Source: Acrasis kona (lineage: Eukaryota; Heterolobosea; Eutetramitea; Acrasida; Acrasidae). Taken from it: 29,662 nt of DNA. Made by a program: the position numbers and the translations under genes. Below the pieces are notes generated by a model. It made no database searches and was not told the DNA's origin. It was given only the letters and a program-made list of their open reading frames with translations. The stretch lies in assembly GCA_026419775.2 (NCBI GenBank), contig JAOPGA020001611.1, positions 1 through 29,662 on the forward strand, written 5' to 3'. This document shows positions 2,076-28,260 of the stretch, in pieces (positions within the stretch are counted from its first letter, which is position 1; each line of letters starts with the position of its first letter).

Positions 2076-2304
2076 TTTTGTAGTACAAGTTTCCATGTTT
2101 CATCCCAAGATTAATGAAACGTGATGATAATTTGCTATGCTCAAATATTAACAGTAGCAATAATATAATTAAAAACACTTTATTCATCAAATGCTTGTTG
2201 AAAGATTAACAAAATCATTATTAAACGCACCAATTCAAAACTTCCTTTTTGTTATAATAGATCGACCAAAACTATCACCAAACGATTCTATTAATTAAAT
2301 GAAT

Positions 2305-2502
2305 GGGTGTACTGCGCCTCGAGGTTAGTGCAAGACGAGGGCAATACAGCCAATAAGGTGTCTCAAACCGTTTCCGGCGAGACAGCACCTATCAGCCCCT
2401 AAGAAAAATTAAGTTAACATCGTGCGCTCTATGAGACGCTATCAGATATTAATCAGATAAGAACAGATACTACACTTGATCTAAGCCGAAGCCGAGAAAG
2501 AT
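2305..2502 (-). ncRNA. U2 spliceosomal snRNA
   Basis: The minus strand carries the most conserved block of U2. It has a 5' stem I region (TCTCGGCTTCGGCTTAGA), then ATCAAGTGTAGTATCTGTTC containing the GTAGTA branch-site recognition element, then the stem II region with ATTAATATCTGAT. Stem IIb is GCG-CTC/GAG-CGC. An Sm-type site AATTTTTC follows, then a stem III with a GAAA tetraloop, and a terminal stem IV (CCTCG/CGAGG) whose loop TCTTGCACTAACCT resembles the U2A'/U2B'' site. It ends in GTACACCC, like other U2 RNAs. Ends are inferred by homology; about 198 nt. Its branch-recognition element fits the TACTAAC-like motifs seen in several introns of this window. Confidence 0.95.
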
Positions 2503-3201
2503 GTTTTATGAGTTAGAGTTGATGAAAGTTATATGCAGTTTAATTTTCTTTATGTTTCGTTTCTTGAATGTGGGTCTTACAATAAATCTTCAAGTTGGTT
2601 GAAGTGAGATTGAAGGAATGCATGTGGGAATTTCCCTAATTATTTGAGGAAAATGAAGCTGGGAGGGGTGAAAATGTGCCGCATAGAGATGATTTCCTAA
2701 TCCCGAATAGCAATCTCGCCCAATTGAAAGTGCAAGCAGCAAGTTCAATAATTGTATAGGAAATTTTCTTGTACCGAGGCTCAGACATAGTGCATTGACA
2801 CTTACCAGTACACATGGATTTTTTTAAACCTTACAACAATCAAATTCCAACACTTCAAACACAAACATATCAAGCACGATGGTAGAATAATATAAAAAGC
2901 AGAGTTATCTCCAAAAAACAAGAAATTCATAATAATAAACACTTTGANGACAATCATCAAAATTGAATCAACAATACACCATCTAATCCTTCGCTTTATC
3001 AAAAAGAAATTAGACTTATTAAATAATAATTTCATTAGCTATATTAAATTGAGCAAGTTCAATTGCTATTAAAATGATGTTTTAATGTATATTTAATTAA
3101 TAAAATTCAAGGCAACAATCGAAAGGTACGACAACACATCACGAAAAAGAAGATTAAGGAATGTAGTACACATATTACATTACAAATTAATATTTTGTAA
3201 T
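2503..3201. other. Intergenic spacer between U2 snRNA and tRNA-Ala
   Basis: I see no convincing gene in these ~700 bases. The only open frames are short (for example a 51-codon minus-strand frame at 2636-2790) and resemble nothing known. One ambiguous base (n) is present at 2948. The U2 promoter should lie just above 2502, but I cannot point to a recognisable proximal sequence element. Confidence 0.5.
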
Positions 3202-3289
3202 GGGGATGTAACTCAGTTGGTCGTATTATACAACAAAGAGTGCCTGCTTTGCATGCATGAAGTCCAGGGTTCGATTCCCTGTATCTCCA
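3202..3289 (+). tRNA. tRNA-Ala (TGC anticodon) with a D-loop insertion
   Basis: The acceptor stem GGGGATG pairs with TATCTCC (two G-U pairs), with A as discriminator. D stem ACTC/GAGT is perfect. The anticodon loop TTTGCAT carries TGC at 3250-3252. The T arm CAGGG-TTCGATT-CCCTG is perfect. A box and B box are intact and a T6 Pol III terminator follows at 3291-3296. The D loop is 23 nt long; removing 3222-3236 leaves a standard 8-nt loop (AGTTGGTA) and a standard 73-nt tRNA. The anticodon stem has one mismatch (C3244 opposite T3258), so reduced function is possible, but the Pol III signals argue for expression. Confidence 0.88.
3222..3236 (+). other. Putative 15-nt tRNA intron in the D loop
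   Basis: The insertion lies between GGT and AGAGT of the D arm. GTTG (3216-3219) pairs with CAAC (3231-3234) to form a 4-bp helix. It is followed on the 5' side by GT|C and on the 3' side by the three-base bulge AA|A before the D stem. Cutting after the second base of each, as tRNA splicing endonuclease does in bulge-helix-bulge or bulge-helix-loop substrates, removes exactly the 15 extra bases. That agreement is seen in the sequence; that it is spliced is inference. Confidence 0.6.
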
Positions 3290-20491: not shown

Positions 20492-21313
20492 TCACTCATC
20501 ATCGGCTTCTTCGTCTTCTCCATCGTCGCCACTCAAATCATCTTCTTCTTCCTCCTCAACGTCTTCTTCATAAGAATCATCCTCTTCAATTTCAAAGTCA
20601 TAGTCACCATTGTCGATGGGTGTGGAAGGAACTTCAATTTTTTTTGGTTTAGGCATTTCAAAATCAGAAGGAAGTGCGGCGTTGGCTTTTTCAATTAATT
20701 TCTTAACACGGACTTTGAAGGCTTCTCTCTTGTCTCTGTACTCAACACCAGCATCTACGTTTGCAGGAGAGAAAATGTTTGGATCACTTAAAAGTGATAT
20801 AATACTTAAAAGGATCGTTTCTGGTGTTTGTGTTGGGTTCCATCTCTCTTCTGGGCGCTCACCGCTCATCTCATCTTCACCAGGAGCGTGTAAAATACTA
20901 ATACAAACTTTACCGTTTGACTCTACATTGGGATGCCAGAACCCTGATGTAAAAGTGAGGGTTGGTGGTTCAAAAGGGTAAGACTAACATAAGTACATCT
21001 TGCTTAATGTGAATGCTATCGCTTACCTCTGGAAAGACCATTTCTGCCTGTACGTAAAGAGAGAATGTAAAACAAAAAGTTAATTAGTTTAGTTAAGAAA
21101 AATATACCCTAGATCGTGTAAGAATAAATGATCGCGTTGTTTTTAGACATACTGGAAGATACCGCCTTGATATGGAGTGTCAGGTGGACCTTGAATGTAA
21201 CATCTCCACTTGTATATGTCTGAATCATCGCATAATTCTACCTTAAACCCTTCGACGGGTTCCTTAAGCATAGTTTTTAGTTGGTTCTGAAGGAGCTTTT
21301 GTGATGCCTGCAT
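20492..21313 (-). CDS. CDC34: CDC34/UBE2R-type ubiquitin-conjugating enzyme E2
   Basis: Exons are 21153-21313, a single base at 21108, 21027-21047 (21 nt) and 20492-20983, giving 224 residues. The UBC fold is clear: GPPDTPYQGGIFQAEMVFPE, YPFEPP, HPN at 78-80, catalytic Cys88 (GKVCISILH), then the acidic insertion ILHAPGEDEMSGERPEERW typical of CDC34/UBE2R/UBE2G. NVDAGVEYR follows, and the C-terminal tail is very acidic, as CDC34 uses to bind cullin-RING ligases. It should build Lys48 ubiquitin chains with SCF. The ATG at 21313 has A at -3. An alternative 5' exon (21356-21412) spliced into 21307 would add 19 residues in frame, but its ATG context is poor. Confidence 0.92.
21108..21108 (-). other. 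Putative single-nucleotide exon (G) of the E2 gene
   Basis: The 105 bases between TTC-CA (ending at 21153) and GCA-GAA-ATG (starting at 21047) cannot be removed as one GT-AG intron while keeping the conserved GGIFQAEMVFPE sequence. They split into a GTATGT...CTAG intron (21109-21152, 44 nt), one base G, and a GTATAT...ACAG intron (21048-21107, 60 nt). Joining CA+G+GCA restores the codon CAG exactly. Both donors match the best donors elsewhere in this window. Confidence 0.6.
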
Positions 21314-21722: not shown

Positions 21723-23150
21723 ATGAGACTAGTAGTTATGTCATTTGCTTTATTCTATTCCTTGTTTGTGGTATGCGCCAAAGCACAAACAAGAATTATT
21801 GGAGCTGGTAATATTCTAGGTGGCAATGGTGGTAGTGTCATGGGTGGTAACGCAGGAAATTCTATTAACTCAGGAGTGGGAGGTCCCTCATACACCAACG
21901 ACGAAGGAATTCTGAGTAATGTTGGAGTATTAAACATTGGTGCCCTCAACGATTTAGTCGCTTTGAACAGCGCAAGAAAGCAGAGAATTATTGGATTAGG
22001 TAATGTTCTTGGAGGTAACGATGGTAGCATTATGGGTGGTAATGCTGGAAGCTCCGTGAATTCTGGTTCCTCTGGACCAACTTACGTGAACGATGAAGGT
22101 GTTCTAAGTAACGTTGGTGTGTTGAATGTTGCAGCTGCCAATGATTTGGCTTTGTTAAATAATGCAAGGAAACAAAGAATCATTGGATTAGGAAACATTC
22201 TTGGAGGTAACGGCGGTAGTATTATGGGAGGTAACGCAGGTAGCTCGATCAATTCTGGTTCCTCAGGGCCTACTTATATCAACGATGAAGGAGTGGCCAG
22301 CAACCTTAATGTCTTGAATGTTGGTGCTGCAAATGACGTTGATTTGTTAAACAGTGGAATCAAAAGAAACAATAGGTCTTTAAGACAAAGAATCATTGGA
22401 CTTGGCAACATTCTAGGAGGCAACGATGGTAGCGTTATGGGCGGAAATGCAGGAAACTCAGTAAATTCTGGAGTAGGTGGACCAACATACATCAATGACG
22501 AAGGAGTATTGAGCAATGTTGGTGTTTTAAATGTCGCAGCTGCCAATGATTTGGCTTTGTTAAATAATGCAAGGAAACAAAGAATCATTGGATTAGGAAA
22601 CATTCTTGGAGGTAACGACGGTAGTATTATGGGAGGTAACGCAGGTAGCTCAGTAAATTCTGGAGTAGGTGGACCAACTTACATCAATGATGAGGGAATT
22701 TTGAGCAACGCCAATGTGTTGAATATTGCTGCCGCCAATGATCTAGCCCTACTAAACAGTGCAAAGAAGCGCATTCTAGGTGTAGGTAACATTCTCGGAG
22801 GTAATGGAGGAAGCGTTATGGGAGGAAACGCAGGAAGCTCCATCAACTCTGGAGTAGGAGGACCAACCTACGTAAACGATGAAGGAATCTTGAGCAATGT
22901 TGGTGTGTTGAATGTTGGAGCATTGAACGACTTGGCTGCATTGAACAGTGCAAAAAAAAGAATCATTGGATTAGGTAACATTCTAGGAGGCAACGATGGT
23001 AGCGTTATGGGTGGAAATGCAGGAAACTCAGTAAATTCTGGAGTAGGTGGACCAACATACATCAATGACGAGGGAGTATTGAGTAATGTTGGTGTCTTGA
23101 ACATTGCTGCACTAAATGACTTAGCTGCATTGAATAGTGGCAAAAAATAA
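21723..23150 (+). CDS. Secreted protein of seven tandem repeats separated by basic sites
   Basis: The product is 475 residues: a signal peptide (MRLVVMSFALFYSLFVVCAKA) and then only seven repeats of 64, 64, 71, 64, 63, 63 and 63 residues. Each repeat reads roughly R-I-I-G-x-G-N-I-L-G-G-N, GS-(V/I)-M-GGNAG, NSG-x-x-GP-(T/S)-Y, NDEG and NVGVLN, ending in a hydrophobic ND-LALLN stretch. Repeat boundaries carry basic residues: ARKQ|R, SLRQ|R, AKK|R. They look like furin/kexin-type sites, so the protein could be a precursor of ~60-residue secreted peptides. Alternatively the Gly/Asn-rich repeats may form a beta-structured extracellular coat. There are no cysteines. No family is recognised. A single exon, ending in AAAAAATAAAC. 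Confidence 0.85.
   Translation: MRLVVMSFALFYSLFVVCAKAQTRIIGAGNILGGNGGSVMGGNAGNSINSGVGGPSYTNDEGILSNVGVLNIGALNDLVALNSARKQRIIGLGNVLGGNDGSIMGGNAGSSVNSGSSGPTYVNDEGVLSNVGVLNVAAANDLALLNNARKQRIIGLGNILGGNGGSIMGGNAGSSINSGSSGPTYINDEGVASNLNVLNVGAANDVDLLNSGIKRNNRSLRQRIIGLGNILGGNDGSVMGGNAGNSVNSGVGGPTYINDEGVLSNVGVLNVAAANDLALLNNARKQRIIGLGNILGGNDGSIMGGNAGSSVNSGVGGPTYINDEGILSNANVLNIAAANDLALLNSAKKRILGVGNILGGNGGSVMGGNAGSSINSGVGGPTYVNDEGILSNVGVLNVGALNDLAALNSAKKRIIGLGNILGGNDGSVMGGNAGNSVNSGVGGPTYINDEGVLSNVGVLNIAALNDLAALNSGKK
21792..23147 (+). repeat. Seven-copy tandem repeat (~190 bp unit) inside the coding sequence
   Basis: Units start at about 21792, 21984, 22176, 22389, 22581, 22770 and 22959. Homogenisation is visible: 22131-22246 and 22536-22651 are identical over 116 bp except for one base, and the fourth and seventh units differ mostly at synonymous sites. 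This indicates recent unequal crossing-over or gene conversion with the reading frame kept. Confidence 0.9.
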
Positions 23151-23285: not shown

Positions 23286-26200
23286 CTATAAATGGCCAAT
23301 AACCACTAAATTGGTTTCAAATATACAAAATTTCTTTTTCCTGTAAGAGTTGTCCGACGTATCAGCAGCTTGAGAGGATTTATTGTTTCTCCTCAACTTT
23401 CTACTCATGAACGCCATCTCATTAAAGTCCCTTCCAGCTTGTTGAGGAGATTCTGGACTCAAAATACTAGATGGTGCCACAGTTGATCGATTATGCTGCA
23501 TTCCCTCTATAACATCTACAAATGATGTTAAAATACCTTCATTGTGTACTAGATTATTTTTAAACACCCCATGTAGTCTCTTGATTGTTTTTGCCTTCTC
23601 TTCTTTTTCAATATCTTGAGTGGAAGTTATTTTATTAGAGTTGGTAATGGCTATAACTTCCAATCTCTTTGTAAAGTTAGATTTTCTATCACCTATTAAT
23701 ACAGGTGAAGCTACATGATCTTTGTGGAAAGGTTCAACATGACCAAGTTCATATTTTTCAGCTTCATCATTATTGTTCTTATTGTCAATATTTATATTGA
23801 ATAACTCAAATTGGGGGTGATGAGGAATATATGGTAAGCTATTGTTTTCATTGTTTATAAATAAAGGCGTTTGAGGAGTAATGTTGCTAAACTCGGGTGC
23901 ATCATCATAACAATCTAGACTATTTGCATTATTGTCTTCTTTTATCCTTGCTCTTCTTCTTCTTATAAATATCACAGCAAGCACAATAGTTACAAATATA
24001 CAAAGAAGCACCAGCACAATTACTATAATGGATATATAGATCGCCATCATTATAGGTCGATTTACCAGTTGATTAGAAAATAAAGTAATGTTTAGTGTTT
24101 GAACAAATATAACTTTGGCACTGTATTCCAATATTGTAGACAAGTGTTGATACTGTAAAATTACTAATCGATTGCTTTACTATCCTTGACTCATCTCCAA
24201 CACTCTGAGACAGCCCTATCATGTATTTATTAACAAGAAACGAAATTGGAATGTTTCGAACAACGGTAGATGTTGTTTTACATATTGGTTGTAATGTCTT
24301 TAATCTCAATAAATCAACTTGAAATATTGCTGAATTATTTATATAAAAGTCAGAAGCTGTAATAATTTTTATAACCATTCTATAATCCTCTTTTAACTCA
24401 AAATAACAATTATTTTTAATGTTATTTAAAAATCCAGAAATATTGTAATTAATTGACATGTGCAGACCACTTGTTTTATTTTCTAGTGCACCATAAAAAT
24501 AACCACTTTTATTAGAAAACATCCACAACTCCATTATATTACTTTTAACAACATTATCAACAACCATAAAATCTACAAAGCTTTCTTGATATTGAATGTT
24601 GTATTCACTCTTTGTTAATAATGCTCTTCTTTGATTTGTTTGTGATGTAAAAGAAGATTTTAACACGACATAGTTATAACTAGGAATAATTGATATCTCA
24701 TCATTGCAAAAAGGAAGTTGATTTGAATTGCCTATTAATTCACTAACTATTTGAGATGATGTGACAAAGAGTTGAATATAATTGGGAATTAGATACATTA
24801 ACAATTTCGATTCATTACAAAATAAAAGTCCGTCATCATTAGATACAGTCAAGTCAACAAATTGTGAAAATGTATTATTCAGTAATGGTGCTACACAAAT
24901 GATTGATGATTCATTTATGTATATAGCACTAACTATTACATTAATCGCTGAATAGAATAAAGATTGACTAAATTTACATACTAGTGAAGACGTGTTTTGA
25001 AAGTTGCTTCCATAAACATATATATGGGTATTAAAGCCTCCTTGTATGGGATATATATCATATATTGTAATATGGGGCATTTGAGTTAGTGTAACCGTAG
25101 GTGACAATGAGGCTGTAAGAGTGGTAGTTGATGTAGCTGTATGTGTTGAAGTGGGAGTTAAAGTTACTGATGCAGTGGAGGTTGATAGTAGTAAAGTAGG
25201 TGTGGGTGTTGGAGTCAGTAATGGTGTGGATGTAGGTGATGAACTTGATATTATAGGGGTGGGAGTGGGCACAGTAGTAGTGGTAGACATATAGGTGGAA
25301 GTGGTTGTTGGTGCTGAGGTGGGTGTAGGTATTGGTGTCAGTGTAGTAGCAACTGTAGGAGTAGACGTGATCGTTAGAGTATATGTTGGTGTTTGAGTTA
25401 GTGCTGAAAGAGTGGGAGTAGCAGTCGGCGTGAGCGTTTGTGGAACAGTAATCGTTGTGGTCGTTGAAGCAGTGGGTGTAGGAGTTAGTATCGGAGTATG
25501 TATCGGTGTGGGAATAGGTGTTGAGGTAGCCGTGGGAGTTAATGTAGCTGTTGGTGTGGGAGTTGGAGCAGGAGTTGGAGTAGATATCGGAGTGGGTGTT
25601 TGTGTTGGAGAGGCCGTAGGACTTGAAGTAGAGATCAAAATGAGTGTTGGCGTAGTAGTTAGAGTAGCTGTTAAAGAGGGAATAGAAGTTGGTGTGGGAT
25701 TGAGTGTATGTATTAGTGTTGGTGAAGGAGTAGGTGTATATGATGGCGTTGGTGTTTGGGTAGGTGTAGGTGTGGGAGTATTTGTTTGTGTATCTGCTAA
25801 TGTTGACGTGAGAAATAATGTTGCAGTCGGTGTTGAAGTAAGTACCAATGTAGGAGTTATAGTGAGTGATATTGTAGACGTAAAAATGAGTGTTGGCGTA
25901 GGTGATAGAGTAGGTGTTGATGTCTGAGTAGGTGTGAATGCCAATGTAGGAGAAGGTGTTTGTGTGATAATTTGAGTTGATGTGATGGTGGGTACTTCCG
26001 TATGCGTCGGAGTTGATGTAGGTATTGGCGTTATTGTTTGTGTTGGTGTAGGTGATTGAGTGATAGAATAAGGCATTGTGCTGGACGTTGGTGTCAATGT
26101 AGGCACTGTTGTGGGGGTAGGTGTATCTATCTGTGAAGGAGTGGGGGTTGGAGTAGGTGTATCTGTAGGTGTTGGAGTGGGAGTAGGTGTATCTCTAAGT

Positions 26201-28260
26201 GTAGGTGTGGGAGTAGGTGTATCTGTAACAATAGATGTGGTTGTGGAGTAAATTGTATCAGTAGGTGTTGGAGTAGGCGAAGGAGTTGGTGTTGGAGAAG
26301 GGGTAGGTGTTAGAGTGGGTGTAGACGTTGGGGTGAGCGTTGGTGTAGGTGTATCAGTGATTGTCGGAGTAGGAGTGGGAGTAGGTGTAGGAGTGGGTGT
26401 AATAGTGGGTGTAAGAGTTATACTAGGCGTTGGCGTTGGATTAGGTGTTGGCGTACGTGTCGGTGTTTCTGTGGGTGTCGGTGTATCAGTAGGTGTCGGA
26501 GTGAGAGTAGGTGTAGGTGTTGGAGAAGGGGTAGGTGTTAGAGTGGGTGTAGACGTTGGGGTGAGCGTTGGTGTAGGTGTATCAGTGAGTGTCGGAGTAG
26601 GAGTGGGAGTAGGTGTATCAGTAGGTGTTGGGGTGGGAGTAGGTGTAGGGGTCGGTGTTTCTGTGAGTGTTGGTGTACTAAACACAGTTGAAGTAGACAC
26701 ATTACATTGAACACCAATTGTATTCAAATTACACATACACACATCAGGACTGATACATGATCCATTTCCACTGCACACCATACTATCATTTCTATCAACA
26801 CCAAAACAACTCCACGAATCACAAGTATTGCCATAATACCCATGATAACAAGTACAATTATCAAATGATCCACAAGTACCATTACCAGAGCACACAGCCG
26901 TTGAATTATATAAAACGTGATTACAATGGTAAACTTCACAACTATTGCCTTCATAGCCAACGTGACATGAACATTTATTAGGTGAATCACAAGAGCCGTG
27001 ACCACTACAAACATTATCAAGGTCGTAATTTACAACACCACTACAATTATAATAACTACAATCGGGTCCAAAATAGAGGCTATTAGTGCAGTTACACATG
27101 TTATATTCGATGCAGGTGCCATTTTTATAATTACAAACACTATCGTCAAGAGAAGAAATATTATTACAAGTGTAGGTTGAGCAGTTGGAAAGACCATAAC
27201 CAGTCATACACTGACATGTTTGGTTTCCCACACAATACCCGTTCCACATACAATTATTTATTGTAGAACAATCAAAATCTGTTCTTATGTACATATTTAC
27301 CTGCATGCAGGCAGTCGCGATAAAACCGACCCCATACTCTCCTCTATTACCACTAAATGTAGGAAAATTATTAATTGTAGATTTTCCATATCCACCTATA
27401 CCGATGAATGAATCGGGCGTATTGCAGTCATTTTCATTATTTCCCATGAATCCCATTCGAAATCGGTTGCGTATGTAAAGGTCGGATGTGTTTTGATTTA
27501 CTCCCTCTCTGTTGCAATATGATTGCAAAACACCTCCCCCACCCACCCTACTTTGTGAGATGTTTCATAAAAAATGCATCACTCACCATTTTATCCAATT
27601 ACTCCTTCCTTGTGGATACCACGGCATAAAATTCAGCCTTTGGTTAAATAATCCACTTACGGTCATTGGTTGATAAACCGCCGTGTTTAGATTCAATGAT
27701 ATGTTTGTTGAATTCTTTTACAATATTATTATAATGTCAAAGATTATGTTTTACCATGAATAATGGTGTTAAAACGCGACCAGTCAAATACATTAACGTA
27801 TAAGGTACATCATTGAAAGCTGAGAATTTAGAATTACCCTGATCTAGATTTGTTAGGGTTTTCACTTCGCGAAGACGTACCTAAATCTTTGGTTGTCGTG
27901 TTAAAAGAGGATCCCGAGTCTGTCCAATGTATAGAAGTGTAATTAAATGTGCTGCTGGTTCCGTCTATTTTCATGACTAATGTATATCCTTTGTTCTGCA
28001 TATCGCAATGTGTTTGGTAAGGTGTTGATTCATAAGTTACGGACGACAACCAATACCACCCGTCAGGCGGTGTTAGTTGATAATAACCTTTCCAAAACTG
28101 GTATATATCTCTGCAGCTGCGACCAGGTTTATCATACGCTTTATATTGTCAGAAATGAACCGATGTAATACTTACACGAGCCATCCTGATACATCATCAT
28201 TTTTGATAATGCTAGGGGTATGAGCGCTACAAGCATAAGCTTGAGTGCCGGTATTACCAT
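23286..28260 (-). CDS. Mosaic surface receptor: fibrinogen-like head, EGF modules, Thr/Pro stalk, TIG, one TM helix
   Basis: Proposed exons: 28176-28260, 27881-28138, 27755-27843, 27587-27714, 24181-27547, 23286-24152; 1597 residues. The first four introns are 37-40 nt; the last is uncertain (28 nt at 24153-24180, or another GT-AG pair within ~24090-24210). Order: a signal peptide ([19 protein letters not shown]), a fibrinogen-like domain (~29-265: [17 protein letters not shown], then [12 protein letters not shown] and [10 protein letters not shown]), five Cys-rich EGF/tenascin-type modules ([19 protein letters not shown]), a ~540-residue Thr/Pro stalk, an IPT/TIG-like domain (IYPIQGG, YVYGSNF), a helix ([16 protein letters not shown]) with RRRR stop-transfer, and a ~220-residue cytoplasmic tail. 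It is probably an adhesion or phagocytosis receptor. Confidence 0.82.
25090..26700 (-). repeat. Low-complexity Thr/Pro-encoding minisatellite
   Basis: The plus strand is almost wholly G/T/A (variants of GGTGTAGGAGTG) and the minus strand encodes TPTPTPTP with hydrophobic and Ser substitutions. Longer higher-order copies are visible: blocks around 26284-26360 and 26520-26600 share nearly the same sequence. It forms the extended, probably heavily O-glycosylated stalk of the surface protein. Long open frames on the plus strand here are antisense shadows. Confidence 0.92.

Follow-up and report, generated by a model that had tools for sequence, protein, structure and literature searches.

A candidate one-nucleotide exon in a CDC34-type ubiquitin-conjugating enzyme gene of Acrasis kona

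What pattern of splicing removes the 105 nt that interrupt the conserved core of a ubiquitin-conjugating enzyme (E2) gene in Acrasis kona, a heterolobosean amoeba, and leaves the encoded protein intact? The gene lies on the reverse strand of the window, by which we mean the whole stretch of DNA analyzed (29,662 nt of contig JAOPGA020001611.1, assembly GCA_026419775.2), and a DNA search found the E2 locus once in the assembly. An earlier note on this DNA had read the interruption as two canonical introns flanking a single base, and the coordinates, lengths, and sequence that it gave (a 44-nt GT-AG intron, G 21108, a 60-nt GT-AG intron, and a 21-nt exon) are exactly those found here (Table 1). 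The assembly comprises 37.35 Mb in 1021 contigs, against the 44.02 Mbp estimated in the genome paper (PMC11589745).

With both introns removed and the lone G retained, translation of the spliced gene gives a 224-aa protein (224 codons plus stop). The protein carries a UBC fold domain (PF00179, UQ_con; 154.7 bits versus a cut-off of 27), with a Pfam UQ_con match at 21152-21292, and its best PDB match is UBE2R2 (205.7 bits, residues 1 to 222). A catalytic Cys region, a nearby acidic-loop insertion, and an acidic C-terminal tail define the CDC34/UBE2R class. The CISILH motif (C88 to H93) is invariant across the 18 aligned rows, the acidic-loop segment GEDEMSGE..ERW aligns with UBE2R2, and the acidic tail is also present. 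By its sequence, the A. kona protein is an E2 of the CDC34/UBE2R type.

Table 1. Positions of the E2 gene parts and of other features in the window
Feature	Position	Strand	Description
Exon 1 of E2 gene	21313-21153	-	161 nt, ATG to TTC CA, ends within the Gln-54 codon
Candidate intron 1	21152-21109	-	44 nt, GTATGT...GATCTAG, phase 2
Candidate one-nucleotide exon (G)	21108	-	completes CAG (Gln-54)
Candidate intron 2	21107-21048	-	60 nt, GTATAT...CGTACAG, phase 0
Exon 3	21047-21027	-	21 nt, encodes AEMVFPE
Intron 3	21026-20984	-	43 nt, GTAAGC...GTTAG, phase 0; length typical for the genome
Exon 4 to stop codon	20983-20492	-	SYPFEPP..., CISILH catalytic region, acidic loop, acidic tail
U2 spliceosomal RNA gene	2302-2504	-	Rfam, 108.1 bits over the whole model
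tRNA call	3202-3289	+	Rfam, 51.3 bits, 88 nt; no ARAGORN call
475-aa open frame	21723-23150	+	diverged repeats LGNILGGN..MGGNAG..NSG..GPTYINDEG, period 189 to 213 nt
1157-aa open frame	24073-27546	-	EGF-like, TPTPT-rich by eye

We built five gene models with a single GT-AG intron, the two-intron model, and one that reconstructs the deposited protein. None of the five fits the relatives without a gap or an insertion. With a single canonical 104-nt intron the frame shifts and ends at a stop after 80 aa, two further models stop after 61 and 63 aa, a GTATCT...GCAG intron gives 219 aa without GIFQA, and a GTCTAA donor (intron of 101 nt) leads to 225 aa, one of them an added Tyr. Loss of GIFQA and gain of Tyr were the outcomes that the note had assigned to the last two alternatives, and building the models confirmed both. 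Two introns around one G yield the protein segment GGIFQAEMVFPE, and among the GT-AG models built only this arrangement matches the relatives with neither gap nor insertion. Scored with an E2 profile that was built without the Acrasis E2 sequence under study, the two-intron model with its G reached 269.1 bits, followed by the extra-Tyr model (263.1), the deposited protein (256.7), and the GTATCT...GCAG model (248.3). The alignment has 18 rows, in which 14 relatives span the place once the deposited protein and two fragments are set aside; within AEMVFPE, the residues FP are kept in all 14 and A in 10. Exactly one base stands between the acceptor AG and the donor GT (AG-G-GT at 21110-21106), and this G at 21108 is required for the frame and the conserved residues, as its omission leads to a stop after 80 aa or to another irregularity.

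A spliced aligner supplied with signals trained on other genes picked the 44-nt intron, the G, and the 60-nt intron unprompted in 4/4 distinct settings (five runs, one of them a repeat). When splice signals were ignored, the same aligner preferred, in 3/3 settings, the single 101-nt intron with a GTCTAA donor, which would set an additional Tyr after Gln and before Ala (FQYAEMVFPE) and which keeps an open frame of 225 aa just 6 bits below the best model. We consider this extra-Tyr reading very unlikely. The GTCTAA donor scores -3.9, lower than every one of the 135 sampled donors (a partly circular comparison, since the sample was chosen partly by donor score and under-counts weak donors), a length of 101 nt is far beyond the sampled intron lengths, and none of the 14 relatives spanning the place has an insertion at the Gln/Ala junction, the deposited protein aside.

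The NCBI protein deposited for the locus (P0001, "ubiquitin conjugating enzyme E2 [Acrasis kona]") does not contain the one-base exon. A structure with a 104-nt intron, an out-of-frame stretch, and a 45-nt non-canonical intron gives GGIFQQKWSFQSYPF and matches this protein at every residue. An exact match to the deposited protein is what such a structure has in its favor, and yet it exchanges AEMVFPE for the out-of-frame QKWSFQ, lacks the FP kept in 14/14 relatives, scores 12 bits lower on the E2 profile and 11 lower in Pfam, and calls for over-long and non-canonical introns although a canonical 43-nt intron 3 exists. The reading of QKWSFQ in another frame seems to be a forced repair, and the chance that the deposited protein is right appears to us the smallest of those weighed here; the one-base-exon model would correct a deposited protein. 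A single 105-nt non-canonical intron (GT-CA or TA-AG) is hardly more probable. It would yield the right mRNA, and a protein identical to that of the two-intron model, without a second intron, and the genome authors retained non-canonical sites in some cases, once RNA and coverage had been checked (PMC11589745). Against it, odd intron ends would be combined with extreme length, while two ordinary introns suffice.

Intron lengths were sampled by aligning profiles of four gene families to the DNA, with GT-AG introns and frameshifts allowed, at 123 loci (23 E2, 44 kinesin, 41 Ras, and 15 CCT) that include a few redundant copies, identical introns being counted once. This profile-guided spliced alignment, some of whose long "introns" are artifacts, was used in place of ab initio gene finding on codon usage, which gave too little signal (0.14 nats per codon) and called too many introns. 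An intron was called forced if its length was not a multiple of three or if it held an in-frame stop; the sample covers GT-AG introns only. In the second pass, 131 of the 135 forced introns were 34 to 48 nt long (median of 40 nt) across the four families, and the other four, all kept in the 135, measured 28, 53, 56, and 63 nt. One forced intron reaches 60 nt, and none reaches 100 nt. Inspection of the printed sequence by eye showed that the 56-nt intron (L051) contains a 38-nt GTGAGT...ACACAG and that the 63-nt intron (L114) contains a 45-nt GTATGT...AATAG followed by coding sequence; both are apparent artifacts, and the 28-nt intron (L055) is doubtful. A further 21 unforced stretches (in frame and free of stops, including stretches of 117 and 228 nt) were excluded as coding inserts by eye. 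The longest credible intron in the sample is believed to be that of 53 nt (L119), which the 60-nt candidate intron 2 exceeds, a point against the one-base exon. Predicted A. kona introns span 9 to 95 bp according to the genome paper (PMC11589745), and a tail of longer introns may have been missed by our sample. With 131 of 135 introns at 34 to 48 nt and the longest at 63 nt, a single intron of 101 to 105 nt would be exceptional and out of character for this genome, whereas 44 nt is a typical length; the deposited protein, for its part, needs an intron of at least 104 nt against the annotated range of 9 to 95 bp. These intron statistics strengthen the earlier reading of a one-nucleotide exon, which we regard as probable.

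Among 14 forced introns in other Acrasis E2 genes, none occupies the equivalent place. Elsewhere in the window, a sarcosine oxidase gene (P0121, 15675-16911, reverse strand) has an intron of 40 nt at 16548-16509, and its protein implies by eye a second intron of ∼39 nt upstream; both lengths are typical of the sample.

The four splice sites of the twin introns are ordinary and score like those of real introns. With position weight matrices trained on introns of other genes, donor 1 scored 5.9, acceptor 1 4.7, donor 2 4.9, and acceptor 2 3.5, compared with a median of 5.4 and a lower quartile of 4.05 for the donors of the 135 introns and a median of 4.6 and a lower quartile of 3.4 for their acceptors. 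Both sites lie above the lower quartiles in 76/135 real introns. Intron 1 contains TTCTTAC. The A of this motif, at 21119, is 10 nt short of the last intron base, at a place where other introns are enriched in A, and it is a possible branch site.

How often such a pattern would arise by chance was estimated for one 105-nt intron with a random interior of intron composition and at least 34 nt on either side (300,000 simulations). The expected number of AG[G/A]GT matches per intron was 0.0088, falling to 0.00023 with both sites above the lower quartile and to 0.00003 with both sites as good as those observed. Shuffles of the actual stretch (50,000; 104 nt) gave 0.006, 0.0005, and 0.00006 for the same three levels.

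Another explanation for the frame conflict is an assembly error, in which one G is missing at the boundary of exon 1 and the true sequence is CAG|GTATGT...ACAG|GCA with one ordinary 105-nt intron. The assembly reads CAGTATGT at 21154-21147, where a sequence with the missing G put back would read CAGGTATGT; the genomic string as assembled is TTCCAGTATGTC, and with the G restored it is TTCCAGGTATGTC. A GG at the boundary would give an ideal CAG|GTATGT donor. Sequencing by 454 miscounts runs of one base, although a run of two is a low-risk site. The A. kona assembly is a MIRA hybrid of 454 and Illumina data, according to the genome paper, which also includes RNA-seq of 2 x 100 nt (PMC11589745), and a kinesin gene (L029) contains at position 741 of its trimmed locus an extra T in a run of six that breaks the conserved kinesin frame and is likely an error of the 454 type. 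Near-identical pairs on different contigs were also compared. L011/L012 (99.1% identical) differ by one 21-nt deletion plus substitutions, L003/L004 are identical over 754 nt (100%), and L027/L028 match at 99.8% and 97.2%; the pairs are copies that are either redundant or allelic. One base of L028, at position 1434, is absent from L027; it lies outside a long run and 66 nt ahead of the kinesin domain. Another 0.5-kb piece of this pair is gapped at five places. Since single-base indels do exist in the assembly, whether as errors or as alleles, the assembly-error explanation keeps a small share of our belief.

Several observations weigh against it. The error would leave a 105-nt intron, yet 0/135 introns in the sample are as long as 100 nt. 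Over 92,197 nt of aligned coding sequence, with redundant copies counted, no net missing base was left unexplained; the rule of three then puts the rate at ∼3e-5 per base or less (3 per 92,197), with the reservation that gaps or introns in the alignment may conceal indels. Over these 92,197 nt, six frameshifts in five loci, L029 among them, were called in the second pass. Frameshifts in L035 and L053 are explained by introns, some of them doubtful, in the first pass; that in L054 falls in a divergent kinesin; in L073, a -1 is followed or preceded at five nt by a +1, with a net of zero; and a frameshift in L022 was called in the first pass only. Finally, a chance AG[G/A]GT with good signals (0.00023) would be needed on top of the missing G, and it is improbable that an error would hit the very boundary of an over-long intron in which a good AG-G-GT also lies. 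A one-nucleotide exon is the best reading of this gene, and a probable one.

Under the one-nucleotide-exon reading, two very short spliceosomal introns of 44 and 60 nt would be separated by a single nucleotide, and the lone G would serve as an exon and supply the third base of the Gln-54 codon (CA|G). We infer that both introns are spliced in vivo. They would be removed one after another by intron definition, because acceptor 1 and donor 2 overlap and spliceosomes cannot hold both at once. The 44-nt intron would most likely leave first, as its removal would join TTCCA to the G and give the 60-nt intron a textbook donor, CAG|GTATAT. Once the 44-nt intron is gone, the context of donor 2, which had been AGG|GTATAT, becomes CAG|GTATAT and the donor 2 score goes up from 4.9 to 5.2, whereas the score of acceptor 1 stays at 4.7 if the 60-nt intron is removed first; the gain in donor 2 favors the order of 44 nt before 60 nt, although it is small. 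The predicted mRNA junctions are TTCCAGGCAGAAATG with the G included, TTCCAGCAGAAATG with the G skipped, and TTCCAGTATGCAGAAATG with the extra Tyr, and the predicted splicing intermediates are TTCCAGGTATATTTTTC if the 44-nt intron is gone first and GATCTAGGGCAGAAATG if the 60-nt intron is gone first.

The candidate belongs to a known and very rare kind of exon with precedents in plants and Fusarium. The earlier note was right about the rarity, but the single plant precedent that it named was an incomplete account: nuclear one-nucleotide exons are described in APC11 (PMC4674806), in APC11 and VPS55 of plants (PMC8831610), and in CYP621A of Fusarium (PMC12940212). The plant APC11 and VPS55 exons resemble the A. 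kona E2 exon in that one base stands between AG and GT, is required for the frame, and was missed by annotation. Those exons are conserved across land plants and are backed by cDNA, reporter, or RNA-seq data, and in Arabidopsis APC11 the base is an A within a stretch once annotated as a 422-nt intron; the A. kona case, by comparison, comes from one amoeba, is known from DNA alone, spans 105 nt, and has a G. The APC11 authors propose sequential splicing by intron definition (PMC4674806), and for APC11 a change made to the single base was shown to turn up in the mRNA. Fusarium CYP621A shares the AGGGT form and was likewise suspected from an over-long intron (139 nt versus a median of 56 nt), but is backed by ∼20 orthologues and RNA reads (PMC12940212), where the A. 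kona exon is known from its own DNA.

Fungal stwintrons, as described in PMC12403724, are also pairs of short introns excised consecutively, the first excision completing the donor region of the second, and a one-step product removes an intron smaller by one G. In the [D1,2] class described there, the internal intron lies between G1 and U2 of the external donor, and the criterion is a GGT or GGC start. In the A. kona E2 gene both GT-AG pairs are intact, the first intron lies further out, between exon positions -2 and -1, and the intervening sequence begins GTATGT after CA, with no GGT; since no GT or AG is split, this is not a [D1,2] stwintron. Stwintrons are also the subject of PMC5639578, and the term single-nucleotide exon is used in a placozoan mitochondrial case (PMC5436844) and in two fungal mitochondrial papers (PMC12308204 and PMC8208691). 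Our searches, which covered open-licence papers, found no one-base exon in a discobid. The fuller proposal, that a one-nucleotide exon exists in a discobid through an obligatorily ordered twin intron in which the lone G completes CAG|GTATAT, is tentative, and we think it somewhat more apt to fail than to hold. If true, it would be a donor-completing twin intron that lies outside the fungi, differs in type from the [D1,2] stwintrons, and belongs to a genome where almost all sampled introns measure ∼40 nt.

As to origin, Nelson and Syed propose that a boundary base was lost and that a cryptic AGGGT made up for the loss, and two independent intron gains one base apart are an alternative. Tandem duplication of the two introns found no support, as their similarity score of 14 was equalled or exceeded in 180/262 comparisons with other introns. 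A scan of viral_contigs found no relative.

A pattern search for twin introns, covering part of the donor types and thus no census, returned 26 matches genome-wide, including the E2 site, against 47 for a reversed control, so that the pattern is not enriched. None of the 12 inspected among the other 25 matches convincingly needs a second intron: in five (L128, L130, L134, L135, and L138), one intron alone leaves the frame open for 111 to 405 nt, and the other seven have no convincing frame that needs both introns. The short and uniform sampled introns of this genome make over-long introns with a frame conflict a cheap route to hidden microexons. In the E2 gene, the candidate exon lies within a conserved strand of an E2 of the cell-cycle type, where a failure of splicing would be costly.

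The other features of the window are listed in Table 1. The call at 3202-3289 is possibly a tRNA with an intron or a long variable arm, and the product of the frame at 24073-27546 is perhaps a surface protein. The 475-aa frame at 21723-23150 is divergent to the E2 gene, ∼410 bp from its start, and by eye begins like a signal peptide.
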